NCBI RefSeq assembly: GCF_017353515.1
Contig: NZ_JAFMPY010000001.1
Location: forward strand, 310,001-374,000
Length of the DNA: 64,000 nt
Source: Jiella sonneratiae
Lineage (GTDB): Bacteria; Pseudomonadota; Alphaproteobacteria; Rhizobiales; Rhizobiaceae
Direction: 5' to 3'
In this document: positions 1 to 52,307 of the stretch, one piece after another
Layout of the letters: every line of letters begins with the position of its first letter
Numbering within the stretch: the first letter of the stretch is position 1
Notes under the pieces: model-generated
What the model saw: the letters and a program-made list of their open reading frames with translations, nothing else
Databases searched by the model: none
What the model was told of the DNA's origin: nothing
Made by a program: the position numbers and the translations under genes

Positions 1-1185
1 CGACCCGGCGCCGGAACCGCGCCCCGGCCCGACCGGAATGTCGTGGGACTTCGCCCATTTGATGAAGTCCGAAACGATCAGAAAGTAGCCGGGAAACTTC
101 ATCCGCTCGATGATGCCGAGCTCGAATTCCAGCCGCTCGCGATACGCCTCCTCGGAGACGCCCGGCGCGCAGCCGAGCTTCGACAACCGGCTGGCCAGCC
201 CCTCGAAGGCCTGCCGCCTGAGCTCCGCCGCCTCGGCGGCCTCGGCGGCGACGGGATCGGCGTCGGCGCCGGCAAAGCGCGGCAGGATCGGCGCGCGGGT
301 GCGCGGGCGGTAGGAGCAGCGGCGGGCGATCTCGACGGTGTTTTCCAGCGCCTCGGGCAGATCGGCGAAGAGCGCCGCCATCTCCTCCTTGGTCTTCAGG
401 CAGTGATCGCGGGTCAGCCGTCGGCGGTCCTCGTGGCTGACCAGCCGGTTGCCGGCGACGGCGAGCAGCGCGTCATGGGCTTCGAAGTCGTCGGGGCAGG
501 AGAAGTAGGGCTCGTTCGTCGCGACCAGCGGCAAAAGGAGGTCGTAGGCGAGCGCAACGGTCTCGGCCTCGACCCGCGCGCTGAAGCCGGACTGGCGCTG
601 CAGTTCGACGTAGAGCCGGTCGCCGAACACCGCCGCCAGCCGTTCGAGACGCCCCCTGGCGATCGCCGGCCGGTCGGCGGCGATCGCCGCGCCGACGGCA
701 CCCAGCGGCCCGCCGGTCAGCCCGATGACCCCCGCGCTCCGCTCTTCCAGCCACTCCGCCTTGACGACCGGCCGGTGGTTCTCGGGATCGCCGAGATAGG
801 CAAGCGAGACGATCTCGACGAGATTGGCGTAGCCGCCGGCGTCGGCGGCGATCAGCACCAGCTGGCCGAGCGGCGACAGGCCGCGGTCGGCGCGTCCGGG
901 ACGGGTGTCGACCTCGGAATCGGCGAAGTCGACCTCGATCTGGCAACCGACGATCGGCTGGATTCCCGCCTTCGAGGCCTTCTCGGAAAATTCCAGCGCG
1001 CCGAAGAGGTTGTTGGTGTCCGCGATGCCGATCGCCGGCGCCGCGTCGGCGGCGGCGAACTTGATGATCTGATCGAGCCGAAGCGCGCCTTCGAGCAGCG
1101 AGAAGGAGCTGTGGACGCGCAGGTGCACGAAGGGAAGAGCCGCCATGCCGCCCGGCCCGGCCGGGGTGTCCGTCGATTGTGTCAT
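1..1185 (-). CDS. dnaE: DNA polymerase III subunit alpha, N-terminal part (runs off the left edge)
   Basis: Catalytic subunit of the replicative DNA polymerase; only the first 395 codons are in the window. The N-terminal PHP domain is plain: the stretch [17 protein letters not shown] at about residues 18-34 is the usual start of bacterial PolIII alpha, and an SRLSK...[11 protein letters not shown] region near the edge is the beginning of the polymerase core. I start at the ATG whose A is at 1185 because GAGG lies 6-7 bases upstream; a second in-frame ATG at 1146 is possible. The PHP motif resembles the replicative DnaE1 type rather than the mutagenesis-associated DnaE2. It lies 213 bp downstream of the LexA-controlled micro-ORF and could receive some transcription from it. 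Confidence 0.95.
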
Positions 1186-1398
1186 CGCAAGTCCTCGCAT
1201 GCCGGCATCTGCCGCAGGAACGCACGGCCGGCCTTTCGCGAGCATCGAAGATGCCGGGGGCCGGAAGCCATGCCCTGCGCCGATTACGGGTAAGAGGCGG
1301 AACCGCCCGAGGGAAGGACCGGCCGGGCTGCGTCCCCAGGAAAGGCGGCTTCGTCCACCGGCCCGAGGCCGAGCCGGCGGGCGGACGGCGGAGCCCCG

Positions 1399-1485
1399 TC
1401 AGACGGCCTGGATGACGACGCCGAGGGCGAAGAGGAAGGAGGAAATGGCGAGAAGCGACAGGACGTCCTTGGTGACGGCGAGCAT
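1399..1485 (-). CDS. 28-residue predicted membrane peptide under LexA control
   Basis: A very short gene: ATG at 1485, TGA at 1399-1401, 28 residues. The first eight residues are mildly polar (MLAVTKDV); residues 9-28 are an almost uninterrupted hydrophobic stretch rich in Leu, Ile, Val, Phe and Ala, enough for one membrane helix with only a Gln near the end. A GGGAG ribosome site sits 8 bases before the start, and a promoter with an embedded LexA box lies about 45-60 bases upstream. SOS-induced single-helix peptides of this size are known in alphaproteobacteria (SidA of Caulobacter, 29 residues, which blocks division through the FtsW/FtsN complex). I infer a similar role from size, topology and regulation only; I do not claim sequence homology. 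Confidence 0.72.
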   Translation of the reverse strand: MLAVTKDVLSLLAISSFLFALGVVIQAV

Positions 1486-1526
1486 GGCGGATCTCCCTTC
1501 GGATCGGTGTTTTTGCTAACGTCCCC

Positions 1527-1555
1527 ATTTGTTCTTTTTTTGTTCTGTCCGTCAA
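1527..1555 (-). promoter_or_regulatory. SOS promoter with LexA box GTTC-N7-GTTC inside it
   Basis: A perfect alphaproteobacterial LexA operator, GTTC TTTTTTT GTTC on the plus strand, occupies 1531-1545. Read on the minus strand, a -35 TTGACG (1550-1555) and a -10 ACAAAT (1527-1532) are 17 bases apart, so the operator covers the spacer and touches the -10 element. This is the arrangement expected for LexA repression. It points at the 28-residue peptide gene at 1399-1485. There is no credible gene on the plus strand for it to serve. Confidence 0.8.
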
Positions 1556-1709: not shown

Positions 1710-2405
1710 TCAGGTCATGTCGAGGGGAACGATCTTGCCGGCTTCGAGGGTGATCACGTGATCCATGCGGCGCGCGAGATCGTGATTGTGGGTGGCGATC
1801 AGCGCCGCGACGCCGGACTGCCGCACCAGGGCGGTCAGGGCGTCGAAGACGTAGCCCGAGGTCGTCGGGTCGAGATTGCCCGTCGGCTCGTCGGCGAGCA
1901 GGAGATGCGGCGAGTTGGCGACGGCGCGGGCGATGGCGACGCGCTGCTGCTCGCCGCCGGAGAGCTCGGCCGGGCGGTGCTCGGAGCGGGCGCCGATGCG
2001 CATGTAGTCGAGGAGTTCCTGCGCCCTGACGGCGGCGTCCCGGCGCGGCAGGCCGCCGATCATCTGCGGCAGCATGACGTTTTCGAGCGCCGAGAACTCC
2101 GGCAGCAGATGGTGGAACTGGTAGACGAAGCCGATCGCCTGGCGGCGCATCGCCGTGCGCTTCTCGTCGCCGAGGGTGCCGCAGGCGACGCCGCCGACAT
2201 GCACCTCGCCGCGATCCGGCCGGTCGAGCAGGCCGGCAATGTGCAGGAGCGTCGACTTGCCGGCGCCGGACGGCGCGACGAGCGCCACCATCTCGCCCGG
2301 GGCGATCGTCAGTTCGGCCTCGTCGAGGATGACCAGCCGGTTCTCGCCCTGATGGTATTCCTTGCCGACGGCGGCGAGCCGCAGCGCATGATTGTCTGCC
2401 ATCAT
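1710..2405 (-). CDS. lolD: Lipoprotein-releasing ABC transporter, ATPase LolD
   Basis: ATPase of the inner-membrane LolCDE-type complex that extracts outer-membrane lipoproteins for transfer to LolA. The protein of 231 residues has a Walker A (PSGAGKST, about 45-52), the ABC signature LSGGEQQR, Walker [13 protein letters not shown] and an H-loop ATHNHD, all typical of the LolD/MacB group. Tandem ATGs at 2405 and 2402 are both usable; the first overlaps the stop of the upstream permease gene as ATGA, indicating translational coupling. The order proS-lolC-lolD-dnaE is common in Hyphomicrobiales. Confidence 0.95.
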
Positions 2406-47474: not shown

Positions 47475-49034
47475 TCAGTTCGCCTGACGGCGAAGGAAAG
47501 CGGGGATCTCGAGCTGGTCCTCCTCGCTCGCCGGGCGCGAGGCCGTCGCCGGACGGGCGGCCGACTCGGAGGCGACGCGGCGCGGCGCGTAGGGATTCGG
47601 CTCGACATGGGCGCGGCGGGCCGGTTCGGCCGCCTGATGCTCTTCCTCCTCGCGGCGCGACAGGCCGGTGGTCAGGCGGCGCAAGAGACCCATGGCACCG
47701 CGCTCGTCGACCGGCTGCTCCGCGGCGGCGGCGCGCTGCTCCATCTCGCCGCGCACCACCGGCGGAAAGTCCTCGACGCGGGGCATGCGCGGCTGCTGGA
47801 CCGGCGCCATCGTCGTCTCGGCGGTCGGAACCGCCGGCCGGGCGGCCGGCTGCGGCGCGACCTGGGCGATCTCCGCGGCGAGAGCGGCGGTGAAGGCGTC
47901 CTCGATCTCGCCTTCCTCCTCGGCGGCCTGCGCGGCGGCGGGCTGCTGCACCGTCGCGGCGACCGGCGCCGGCTGCGGCGCGGGGGCGGGCTGCGGCGCG
48001 ACGCGCTGCTGCTGGGCGACCGCCGCATGGTTCATCGCCATCGCCGGACGCGCGGCCATCTCGGCCTCGCTCTTGTCGATGCCGGTCGCGACCACGGAGA
48101 CGCGGATCACGCCCTCGAGATTTTCGTCGAAGGTCGCGCCGAGGATGATGTTGGCGTCCTGGTCGACTTCCTCGCGGATGCGCGTCGCCGCCTCGTCGAC
48201 CTCGAAGAGGGTGAGGTCGCGGCCGCCGGTGATCGAGATGAGCAGGCCCTTGGCGCCCTTCATCGAGGTCTCGTCGAGAAGCGGGTTGGCGATCGCGGCC
48301 TCGGCCGCCGCCATCGCGCGGCCCTCGCCCGAGGCCTCGCCGGTGCCCATCATCGCCTTGCCCATCTCGCGCATCACCGAACGCACGTCGGCGAAGTCGA
48401 GGTTGATGAGGCCTTCCTTGACCATCAGGTCGGTGATGCAGGCGACGCCCGAATAGAGCACCTGGTCGGCCATCGCGAAGGCGTCGGCGAAGGTGGTCTT
48501 GTCGTTGGCGATGCGGAAGAGGTTCTGGTTCGGAATGACGATCAGCGTGTCGACGTTCTTCTGCAGTTCCTCGATGCCCTGTTCGGCGATGCGCAGCCGG
48601 CGCTGGCCCTCGAAATGGAACGGCTTGGTGACGACGCCGACGGTGAGGATGCCCTTTTCGCGCGCCGCGCGGGCGACCACCGGGGCGGCGCCGGTGCCGG
48701 TGCCGCCGCCCATGCCGGCGGTGACGAAGCACATGTGCGAACCGAGCAGGTGATCGCAGATCTCGTCGATCGATTCTTCGGCGGCAGCCCGGCCGACTTC
48801 CGGCTGCGAGCCGGCGCCGAGGCCCTCGGTGACGGCGACGCCCATCTGGATGATGCGCTCGGCGCGCGAGGAGCGCAGCGCCTGGGCATCGGTGTTGGCG
48901 ATCACGAAGTCGACCCCCTCGAGGCCGGCACTGATCATGTTGTTGACCGCGTTGCAGCCGCCACCGCCGACGCCGAAGACGGTGATGCGGGGCTTCAGTT
49001 CGGTGATGTCAGGCTTCTTCAAGGTGATGCTCAT
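47475..49034 (-). CDS. ftsZ: Cell division protein FtsZ
   Basis: Tubulin-like GTPase that forms the division ring. 519 residues. GTP-binding [10 protein letters not shown] at 21-30, the tubulin signature [10 protein letters not shown] at 109-118 and the T7-loop region [26 protein letters not shown] are intact. A long Pro/Ala/Gln-rich linker (about 335-505) ends in the conserved tail [11 protein letters not shown] that binds FtsA and other partners. One copy only is in this window; some rhizobia carry a second, shorter ftsZ elsewhere. Confidence 0.98.
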
Positions 49035-49058
49035 GCCCTCATTCCTCTTTCAACTCGC

Positions 49059-49083
49059 AAAAAGGCCGTTTTGCCGCGCGGCC
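49059..49083 (-). promoter_or_regulatory. Terminator-like hairpin in the ftsA-ftsZ gap
   Basis: On the minus strand GGCCG...CGGCC (with an inner GCCGCGCGGC palindrome) followed by TTTTT, ending about 25 bases before the ftsZ ATG. It could attenuate transcription from ftsA into ftsZ, or be a chance structure in GC-rich DNA. Confidence 0.3.
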
Positions 49084-49162
49084 GTTCGTTGCCATTCTCT
49101 CAAGGCGCGCGGCGCGCACCGTTGTCCTTCTTCCGGCGCGGCGGACCGGCCGCGCCCAGTCC

Positions 49163-50491
49163 TCAAAGCGCTCGGCGCAGCCAGGAGCCGAAGCGTCCCC
49201 CCTCCATCGCCTTTTCGATCGCCTGCGCGGCGATCGAGCGCTCCGCGAGGTATTCGCGATGCGCCACCTGCGGGTAGATCAACAGGCCGACGGAGGTCGA
49301 AAAGCCCGGCCCCTTGCTCGACGGATTGAGACCGGTAACACCCAGCGGTCGCCCGAGCCTGACGTTGCGCTGCAGGACGGTCCGCGCCGTCTCGGCGAGG
49401 CCGGCGAGCTGGCTGGCGCCGCCGGTGAGGACGACGCGCTTTCCGATGACGTGACCGAGGCCCGAGGCGTTCAGCCGGTCGCGCACGAGCTCCAGCGTCT
49501 CCTCGACCCGGGGGCGGATGATCTTGGTGACCAGCGAGCGCTTGACGACGATCGGATGGGCGTCGCCGGTCTCGCCGAGCGGCTGCACCATGATCGGCTC
49601 GCCGCTGTCGTCGAGCAGCTCGGCGAGCGTCGAGCCGTGCATGACCTTGATCCGCTCGGCGTCCGCCGGGCTGATCGACAGGCCGCGCGCGAGGTCCATG
49701 GTGATGTTGGCGCCGCCGAGGGCGATCTGGTCGGCATAGACGAAGCGGCCGTTGTGGAAGATCGCGATGGTCGTGGCGCCCGACCCCATGTCGATGCAGG
49801 CAGACCCCATCTGGGCCTCGTCCTCGACCATGGTCGCCAGGGCGCTGGCATAGGGCGTGGCGACGAAGGCCTCGACCACCAGCTGCGCCCGGTTGATCGC
49901 CGCCTCGAGGTTGCGCAGCGGCGCGATCTCGGCGGTCAGCGCATGGAGATTGGCCGAAAGCCGCTCGCCGCTCATGCCGACGGGATTGTCGAGGCCCGAA
50001 TCGTCGTCGAGCTGGATGTCGTAGACGGTCGAATGCAGGGCGATGCGGCCCTCGTCGAGGGGCATCTTCGCGGCCCTGTCGCTGACCCGCGAGAGGTCGG
50101 CGACCGAGACCTCGCCGACGACGTCGGTCTCGGCGCGGCGGCGCACGCTCTTCAGCCGGCCGGCGGTGAGCGAGACGATCAGCGATTCGACGGTCAGCCC
50201 GGCCATCCGCTCGGCCGCGTCGACGCACTGGCGGATGGCCATCTCCGCCGCGGCGATGTCGACGACGGCGCCGGCCTTGATGCCGCGCGAACGGTGATGG
50301 CCGACGCCGATCACCTCGATGGCATGGGTGCGCTCGGGCAGCATCTCGCCGGCGATGCGCGGGCGCAGCCTGGCGATCAGGCAGGAGATCTTCTCGGAGC
50401 CGACGTCGAGCACCGAGATGACGCGCGAGCGCTTCGGCGACAGCGCCTTGATCCTGGGCAGGTCGGATTTGCCGAAACCGAACACACTCAT
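49163..50491 (-). CDS. ftsA: Cell division protein FtsA
   Basis: Actin-like protein that anchors FtsZ to the membrane. 442 residues. ATPase phosphate loop near VISVLDVGSEKISCLIA (about 24-40), the SHS2 insertion QCVDAAERMAGLTVESLIVSLTAGRLKS, second phosphate motif GSACIDMGSGATTIAIF and a C-terminal amphipathic tail GRFGSWLRRAL. ATG at 50491 overlaps the ftsQ stop (ATGA). Confidence 0.97.
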   Translation of the reverse strand: MSVFGFGKSDLPRIKALSPKRSRVISVLDVGSEKISCLIARLRPRIAGEMLPERTHAIEVIGVGHHRSRGIKAGAVVDIAAAEMAIRQCVDAAERMAGLTVESLIVSLTAGRLKSVRRRAETDVVGEVSVADLSRVSDRAAKMPLDEGRIALHSTVYDIQLDDDSGLDNPVGMSGERLSANLHALTAEIAPLRNLEAAINRAQLVVEAFVATPYASALATMVEDEAQMGSACIDMGSGATTIAIFHNGRFVYADQIALGGANITMDLARGLSISPADAERIKVMHGSTLAELLDDSGEPIMVQPLGETGDAHPIVVKRSLVTKIIRPRVEETLELVRDRLNASGLGHVIGKRVVLTGGASQLAGLAETARTVLQRNVRLGRPLGVTGLNPSSKGPGFSTSVGLLIYPQVAHREYLAERSIAAQAIEKAMEGGRFGSWLRRAL

Positions 50492-51396
50492 ACGGGCTTG
50501 TCCTTGGCGAGGCGCTTGATCAGCTTGGCCCGCTCTTCGAGGCGCTCCTTGCGCCGCTTCAGCGAATCGTCCGTCAGCCGGACCACGACGCGATCGGAAA
50601 GCCGCATGTCGACCATCGCGATGTCGCGATCGAGCAACGTGTTCTGCCTTTCCATGCGCACGACTTCCGCCACCGCCTCGATGGGCTTTTCCTCCGGCAG
50701 GCGGATGACGACGCCGTTCTTCAGTTCGAGATCCCAGCGTCGGCCGCCGACCCGAATGTAGGCCCTCACCCTTGCGCGAAGCTCGGGATAGGCCTCCATG
50801 TCGTCGATAATGCCGGCCGCAGAGCCTGCGGCGCCGGTGCCGACGACGACCGGCAGCGCATCGAAGCGGCCCGGCAGGTATGGGACGATCTTCTTGCCCT
50901 CGCGGTTGACCACGAAGAAGGCGCCGTCGCTCTGCCAGATCGCGTAGGGACGATGCTCGTCCAGATTGATCTCCACCCTGTCCGGGAAGATCTTCGAGAC
51001 CGAGGCGCGGTCGATCCACGGCATCGCCTCGAGGGTCTGGCGGGCCGCCGTCGGATCGAGGGAGAGGAGCGTCTGCGAGCCGGTCTGCCAGAGCGCCTGG
51101 AGGACGTCGATCTCCGAGGTCTCGCTGTTGCCGTGAACCGCCACCTTGTCGATCGCAAAGCCGAGGGGCTGGCCGAAGCCGTCGAGCACCTCGCCGGTAT
51201 GCCCGCCGACGACGACGCCGTAGACGACGGCGCTGCCGACGACCGCGAAGGCGACGGCGCCGAAGCGCGGCAGCGAGAGCTGCGAGGCGCTCGCCGTCAG
51301 CGCCTGCAGGCGGCGGCTCGTGCGGCCGAAGAGCAGCGCCAGCCGCCCAGGGCCGCGGTCGAGCAGGATGTCGGAGCGGGGGCTCAGCGGCCGCAT
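50488..51396 (-). CDS. ftsQ: Cell division protein FtsQ
   Basis: Bitopic divisome protein of 302 residues. Cytoplasmic N-terminus, one membrane helix (about 45-64, [21 protein letters not shown]), then the POTRA domain ([74 protein letters not shown]) and the FtsQ beta domain. Its start lies inside the 3' end of ddl (13-base overlap), and its stop overlaps ftsA. Confidence 0.95.
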
Positions 51397-52307
51397 GAGG
51401 CGTCCTCCACCATCCAGGCGATCAGGTCGTCGAAGCCGTGGCCGGCGGCGCGGGCGATGTCGGGAACGAGCGAGGTGGGGGTCATGCCGGGCTGGGTGTT
51501 GACCTCCAGCCAGACGAGTTCGCCGCCCTCGCCGAAGCGGTCGTCGTAGCGGAAGTCGGAGCGGGTCACGCCGCGGCAGCCCATCGCCTTGTGGGCGGCG
51601 AGCGAATGCTCCTGGACGAGGCGGGCGACGCGCTTCGGCAGTTCCGCCGGCACGACGTGCCGCGAGCCGCCGGGCAGGTATTTCGAATCGTAGTCGTAGA
51701 AGGCGTGGCCTTCCGGCACGATCTCGCAGACGTCGAGGGCGACGTCGCCCATGACGGCGCAGGTCAGCTCGCGCCCGGCGACGTAGCGCTCGACCATGAC
51801 GGTATCGCCATAGGGCCAGTCCGCCGAATAGAGCTGCTGCGGCGGCGTCGACTGGTCCTCGCGGACGATCAGCACGCCGAAGCTCGAGCCCTCGGCGACC
51901 GGCTTGATGACGTAGGGCGGCGGCATGACGTGGGCGGGCGCCGCATCGAGCCGGTGCAGCACCTTCGCCTCGGCGACGGGAACGCCGGCGGCCCTGGCGA
52001 CGATCTTCGCCCGCTGCTTGTGCATCGACAGTGCCGAAGCGAGGACGCCGGAATGGGTGTAGGGGATCTTCAGATATTCGAGGATGCCCTGGATCGTGCC
52101 GTCCTCGCCGAACGGACCGTGCAGCGCGTTGAAGGCGACGTCCGGCGACAGTTCGGCGAGCTTCGCCGCGACGTCGCGCCCGACGTCGAGGCGCGTGACG
52201 CGGTGGCCGAGCCGCTCGATGGCGCCGGCGCAGGCATCGCCCGAGGAGAGGCTGACCGGCCGCTCCGACGACAATCCGCCCATGAGGACCGCCACATGCT
52301 TAGCCAT
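51384..52307 (-). CDS. ddl: D-alanine--D-alanine ligase
   Basis: ATP-grasp enzyme making the D-Ala-D-Ala end of peptidoglycan precursors. 307 residues. Opening [24 protein letters not shown]-binding [15 protein letters not shown], and [26 protein letters not shown] at the magnesium site. Here it is the first gene of the division operon, directly beneath a CtrA box, whereas murC and murB would normally precede it. Confidence 0.96.

Follow-up and report, generated by a model that had tools for sequence, protein, structure and literature searches.

The interval between lolD and the replicative polymerase gene dnaE of Jiella sonneratiae raises the question of whether a reading frame of 28 codons behind a LexA box is a gene, and what its product would do. 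A sequence-only reading of the window, by which is meant the whole 64,000-nucleotide stretch of DNA analyzed here, had proposed a LexA-controlled membrane peptide resembling SidA, the division inhibitor of Caulobacter. The perfect LexA box and the micro-ORF with its ribosome site are all present as proposed, on the minus strand, which that reading left unstated, and the micro-gene has lolD upstream and the replicative dnaE downstream. The features are listed below, the promoter, ribosome-site, and micro-ORF entries by direct reading.

1710..2402, minus strand: upstream neighbor, a lolD-like ABC transporter ATPase (Pfam ABC_tran) with a homologue in many relatives' loci
1550..1555, minus strand: -35 element TTGACG
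1531..1545, minus strand: predicted operator, a perfect LexA box GAAC-N7-GAAC, GAACAAAAAAAGAAC
1527..1532, minus strand: -10-like element ACAAAT, overlapping the second LexA half-site
1493..1497, minus strand: Shine-Dalgarno-like GGGAG, 7 bases 5' of the ATG at 1485
1485 to 1399, minus strand: micro-ORF of 28 codons with ATG start and TGA stop, a candidate SidA orthologue
1333..1341, minus strand: non-coding TYCTGGGGA motif in the interval from micro-ORF to dnaE, found in 12 of 12 near relatives
1..1185, minus strand: N-terminal part of dnaE, the replicative DNA polymerase III alpha; the window begins inside the gene

The promoter had been described as a -35 and a -10 element at 17-base spacing. 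TTGACG and the 17-base spacer, which contains most of the LexA box, bear this out, but ACAAAT is a weak -10, agreeing with the textbook hexamer in just 3 of its 6 bases, and no promoter site was called in 1100-1720 by a strict sigma-70 consensus scan. Two perfect boxes were found in the 64-kb window against 1.74 expected by chance. The second, at 48555-48569, sits within the ftsZ ORF (47475-49034, minus strand) and is therefore probably a chance occurrence; this ORF is part of a division cluster at 47475-52307 (minus strand), about 46 kb from the micro-gene, in which ftsZ, ftsQ, and ddl were recognized by Pfam, with an ORF at the place of ftsA between them. Since a lone perfect box is at chance level, conservation has to carry the case, and together with the negative strict sigma-70 scan this means that the window sequence alone would not settle the matter. 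Across the genome there are 97 occurrences of the box pattern and 52 of a reversed control pattern. A single match to the Pfam domain for LexA DNA binding was obtained in the genome. This lexA has a perfect box of that type shortly before it, as autoregulation would predict, so the operator type fits the host LexA.

The micro-ORF encodes the peptide MLAVTKDVLSLLAISSFLFALGVVIQAV, whose best 17-residue segment has a mean Kyte-Doolittle hydropathy of 2.52, in agreement with the membrane-helix type of segment that had been proposed. With this peptide as the query against 101 whole genomes (own and relatives, E up to 1), matches were obtained in 18, namely the own genome, nine other congeneric genomes, and eight further ones, and the relatives' peptides in this set are 28-32 residues long. 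A perfect box lies upstream of the micro-ORF start in all 18 loci (own included), beginning 19-60 bases 5' of the ATG. The surroundings of the box are also kept: TTGAC occurs within 40 bases 5' of it in 17 of 18 loci, at 9-10 bases in 14 and at 21 in three, and upstream of it in 24 of 30 wider loci of the order, and the base directly after the second GAAC is an A in 17 of 18 and 28 of 30 loci, respectively. Some relatives have more than one box before the micro-ORF, either two overlapping perfect ones in the arrangement GAAC-N7-GAAC-N7-GAAC (L022, L023, L030, L031) or two separate perfect ones (L011, L012). Among the 10 congeneric sequences, pairwise differences at codon positions 1, 2, and 3 number 269, 100, and 436, and the pooled pN/pS is 0.34; the micro-ORF is under purifying selection at the codon level. 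The relatives were checked for a broken frame or a missing hydrophobic pattern, and neither was seen. Comparative sequence evidence confirms that the LexA-box-linked 28-residue peptide gene upstream of dnaE is real.

How far does this arrangement extend? A profile of 16 members of the window family was run over 397 genomes of the order; a perfect box stands beside the match in 20 of the 28 newly fetched loci, and in most of the loci from this search tblastn places lolD on the upstream side, dnaE on the downstream side, or the two together. When the window-family profile by itself was run across the class (190 genomes), it gave nothing convincing outside the order, the best foreign E being 0.02, and the search was therefore switched to a position-based one that starts from dnaE. 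The regions before dnaE, up to 1.1 kb each, were examined in a further 60 genomes of the order, most families being represented once, for a unit defined as a perfect box with a hydrophobic ORF of 24-47 codons behind it. The unit is present in 30 of the 60; it was found zero times in 20 rounds of dinucleotide shuffles and zero times on the reverse strand, and the 6 matches in 116 pieces of other loci are each the unit itself by position. An HMM adds four genomes, three with one-mismatch boxes (L290, L314, L316) and one with no box near (L292), with at most 6.6 bits on the reverse strand of the order regions. By census or HMM criteria, 26 of the 60 have no unit; in the census L292, L294, and L304 showed a perfect box with no qualifying ORF, of which L292 was later matched by the HMM. 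Outside the order, a perfect box with a hydrophobic micro-ORF occurs in 10 of 40 dnaE regions, from seven families, and the other 30 have no such unit by the criteria used; these 40 were picked from 132 non-own genomes with a dnaE match, larger genomes being preferred. In one family outside the order (f56), 30 of 57 matches were fetched and 28 of these 30 loci carry the unit, two of them at 0.5 and 1 kb from dnaE. Judged from sequence, the box-and-peptide slot before dnaE is old.

The same slot is occupied in Caulobacter by SidA. Named Caulobacter genomes were reached with PopZ as a probe, and 19 were chosen from 80 loci; the resulting set comprises Caulobacter, Phenylobacterium, and one MAG titled CAULO1, and dnaE was located in 18 of the 19. 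A SidA-like ORF of about 29 residues lies upstream of dnaE in all 18, a count for which the HMM drew on the peptides from the 11 loci with a perfect box, so that only the 7 loci whose box has one mismatch are independent. The ORF starts 126-173 bases before the dnaE match. All 10 distinct Caulobacter/Phenylobacterium slot peptides are recognized by the NCBIfam model NF033228, 'cell division inhibitor SidA' (best E 6e-21), which as a positive control matches in Caulobacter vibrioides, and the slot peptide of C. vibrioides OR37 scores 72.7 bits over its full 29 residues, where the cut-off is 35. In OR37, the divergent gene beyond sidA encodes a nucleoside hydrolase (Pfam). The literature gives the locus tags CCNA_02004 for sidA (PMC10769358), CC1926 for dnaE (PMC1839093), and CCNA_02005 for a nucleoside hydrolase (PMC3667746), which imply that sidA and dnaE are adjacent in Caulobacter. 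The sequence-only reading had held that such a gene next to dnaE was not described; no explicit statement of the adjacency appears in the literature as far as it was searched, but it is implicit in these tags.

Likeness to SidA is accordingly supported beyond the analogy first drawn, by position as well as by profiles that point to common ancestry. The two peptides agree in size (28 residues in the window, 29 in the SidA of Caulobacter crescentus, CCNA_02004, NF033228), in having one hydrophobic stretch, in the LexA box upstream, in the slot directly upstream of dnaE, and in an alignment that requires no gaps. Unlike SidA, the window peptide has no FVWMMC core and is not called by NF033228, and the other neighbor differs, being lolD in the window and the divergent nucleoside hydrolase in OR37. 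DidA of Caulobacter (71 residues) is likewise a small single-helix division inhibitor, damage-induced and acting on FtsW/I/N (PMC4211646); it differs in being longer, and is described as SOS-independent (DriD) and as binding FtsN. YneA, SosA, SulA, TisB, and other SOS arrest proteins share SOS induction and an arrest of growth or division, and are set apart by size, fold, or mechanism.

The sequence relationship to SidA was assessed at the level of pairs, profiles, and a short motif. Aligned with OR37 SidA, the window peptide needs no gaps; the two have 7 of 28 residues identical and M1, [KR]6, [DE]7, L9, L11, F17, and Q26 in register, and as a pair they score 37.5 where shuffles average 9.7 (sd 5.6), with other pairs of window-family and SidA peptides ranging from clearly above shuffles down to no better. 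For profile comparison, alignments were made of 16 distinct of 18 window-family peptides, 10 distinct of 11 SidA peptides, and 17 of 28 f56 peptides. With hhalign, the window family matches SidA at 82% and E 1e-5 over 24 gapless columns, and the order-wide slot peptides match the window family (95%, E 4e-8), SidA (86%, E 5e-6), and the f56 family (88%, E 3e-6). The window and f56 families gave no match to each other directly, by profile comparison or HMM, and are joined only through the order-wide profile.

This order-wide profile has 24 rows, 23 of the 30 order slot peptides and L033 from the search of 397 genomes, and contains none of the window's 16 peptides and no SidA. Four rows (L297, L302, L307, L322) were shortened so as to begin at an internal ATG. 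Six peptides with a weak motif were left out by eye (L312, L324, L338, L344, L347, L348), as was L318, which is identical to L017 of the window-family alignment. The window's own family contributes one row (L293), and two others belong to a family with one row in the window alignment. An HMM of these 24 rows scores 16 of 16 window-family, 10 of 10 SidA, and 15 of 17 f56 peptides above the 99th percentile of 4000 shuffled peptides. The repeat, which used all 29 order peptides at full length with no row chosen, gave the same result, with 16 of 16, 10 of 10, and 14 of 17, respectively, and 8 of 10 class peptides. The window peptide alone reaches 11.5 and 12.5 bits with the 24-row and 29-peptide HMMs, above the 99th percentiles of 6.8 and 7.4, but is outscored by the top shuffle of the 4000 in each case (13.2 vs 11.5 and 13.4 vs 12.5 bits); the best of 204 hydrophobic 30-mers from long window ORFs scores 9.9 with the 24-row HMM. 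The motif [DE]-x9-F is present in 16 of 16 window-family peptides (1.2 expected from shuffles), 10 of 10 SidA (0.4), 16 of 17 f56 (1.1), and 24 of 30 order peptides (3.5), and in only 3 of 10 class peptides (0.9).

Against homology stand the low identity to SidA and the composition that single-helix peptides share. NF033228 and all other NCBIfam models give no match to the window peptide at E 10, which leaves it below the equivalog cut-off of 35 bits, and Pfam gives nothing for it. The same model finds none of the 16 window-family peptides at E 1, none of the 24 order peptides, and none of the 17 f56 peptides, and across 385 class genomes sampled evenly over families it places one above its cut-off and five at E 0.01. 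Profile comparison supports common ancestry of the window peptide and SidA; the homology comes forward through profiles and appears weak between single sequences. By the letter of NF033228 the peptide is not a SidA, and by slot, operator, size, and profile it would be classed as a SidA orthologue.

The reading that best accounts for the locus, to which we give a probability of roughly 0.74, sees in the micro-gene a divergent orthologue of the Caulobacter gene sidA, encoding a LexA-induced one-helix peptide that stalls FtsW/FtsI/FtsN. We infer that the gene is LexA-induced in this organism, that its product enters the membrane, which target it has, and that division is arrested. In unstressed cells, LexA would occupy the box between the -35 and -10 elements and keep the micro-gene off. 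DNA damage would activate RecA, LexA would be cleaved, and a short transcript would yield the 28-residue peptide, which would insert into the inner membrane as one helix, with a short N-terminus carrying K6-D7, placed by its charge at the cytoplasmic edge, followed by about 20 hydrophobic residues. By the precedent of SidA, the peptide would bind the late divisome (FtsW, perhaps FtsN), and FtsW/FtsI/FtsN would be held inactive so that septation is delayed until repair is done. Work on SidA provides this precedent for holding FtsW/FtsI/FtsN inactive (PMC4211646), and Caulobacter cells without LexA are described as filamenting because of sidA (PMC12700426, PMC13384398).

A small SOS-induced peptide with one hydrophobic stretch could also act on the membrane itself. 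TisB is a small SOS-linked single-helix membrane peptide, a depolarizing toxin under antisense-RNA control, and DinQ is described as a toxic single-transmembrane SOS peptide (PMC3567139). Size class, single hydrophobic stretch, and LexA box are shared with this type, for which the expected effects would be inner-membrane depolarization and slowed growth (dormancy) with the divisome untouched. The window peptide, however, is tied to SidA by sequence and slot, it has no NCBIfam match at E 10 (the presence of a TisB model among the NCBIfam models was not confirmed), and the conserved F and [DE] stand in a fixed register, which suggests a protein contact rather than a generic pore. We regard a peptide of the TisB/DinQ type as unlikely.

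The position of the micro-ORF invites another reading, in which it would be an SOS leader peptide or upstream ORF that mainly induces or tunes the downstream, same-strand dnaE. The micro-ORF adjoins dnaE in many genomes, no terminator-like site was found in 1100-1720, and the dnaE start, which is uncertain among in-frame ATGs at 1245, 1200, 1185, and 1146, falls 153-252 bases past the micro-ORF stop. Genomes in which the two genes are separated speak against it. In 8 of 8 genomes from the window's own taxonomic family with dnaE on another contig or far away, the box stays with the micro-ORF, and the 1 kb before the dnaE match contains no perfect forward box in any of the eight, one having a box at -1238; since the box remains with the micro-ORF when dnaE is elsewhere, the unit kept by evolution is the box and the peptide. 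Selection on the amino acids also appears to exceed what a leader would need, and we hold this reading to be very unlikely, while partial read-through into dnaE where the two are adjacent is possible alongside the SidA-type division inhibitor. In genomes with dnaE elsewhere, a convergent gamma-glutamyltranspeptidase gene follows the lolD-micro-ORF unit (L276:5795-7615, minus strand, by Pfam), and an ORF in L278 is similar by eye to the L276 gene. The TYCTGGGGA motif downstream lies 12-109 bases past the micro-ORF stop in the 12 of 12 near relatives, with GGTGGA before it in 7. Among 60 order genomes, 4 have CTGGGGA in the 300 bases before dnaE and none has it at 600-900 bases; where dnaE lies elsewhere, 1 genome of 8 has it in the 500 bases before that gene. 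The motif is possibly a dnaE promoter or leader of the near-relative group.

An SOS membrane peptide of SidA ancestry could further have a different envelope target here, such as the Lol machinery encoded upstream or the polar growth synthases. Hyphomicrobiales elongate from one pole with different growth machinery, so the target may have shifted, and lolD is the upstream neighbor in many loci. Parsimony weighs against this, and FtsW, the target of SidA, is a conserved divisome protein; a shifted target seems to us very improbable. One perfect box is expected by chance in 64 kb, but a chance ORF behind a chance box is in practice refuted by the pairing of box and ORF at all 18 loci, by the unit in 30 of 60 order genomes against zero in shuffles, and by the pN/pS of 0.34.

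With the micro-gene read as a divergent sidA, the kind of gene is already known, and the wider spread of the window-peptide family has no report in the literature as far as it was searched. By title or abstract, no report of a SidA relative in Hyphomicrobiales/Rhizobiales was found there, which leaves absence from the literature unproven, and the same sources gave no answer to what stops division during SOS in Hyphomicrobiales. Beyond the single locus, we lean, with less assurance than for the micro-gene itself, toward the view that SidA is the local form of an ancient alphaproteobacterial SOS checkpoint peptide, a dnaE-slot gene of 28-47 residues with a LexA box between -35 and -10 and mostly the [DE]-x9-F signature, which would serve Hyphomicrobiales and several further orders as their chief brake on division under SOS and whose transcript could often run into dnaE. 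If true, such run-on would couple division arrest to the resupply of the replicase. The natural variants suggest which SidA residues matter, with [KR][DE] and F17 first, and the fixed slot, operator, and signature provide a concrete candidate gene in Hyphomicrobiales and other orders beyond the current SidA model.
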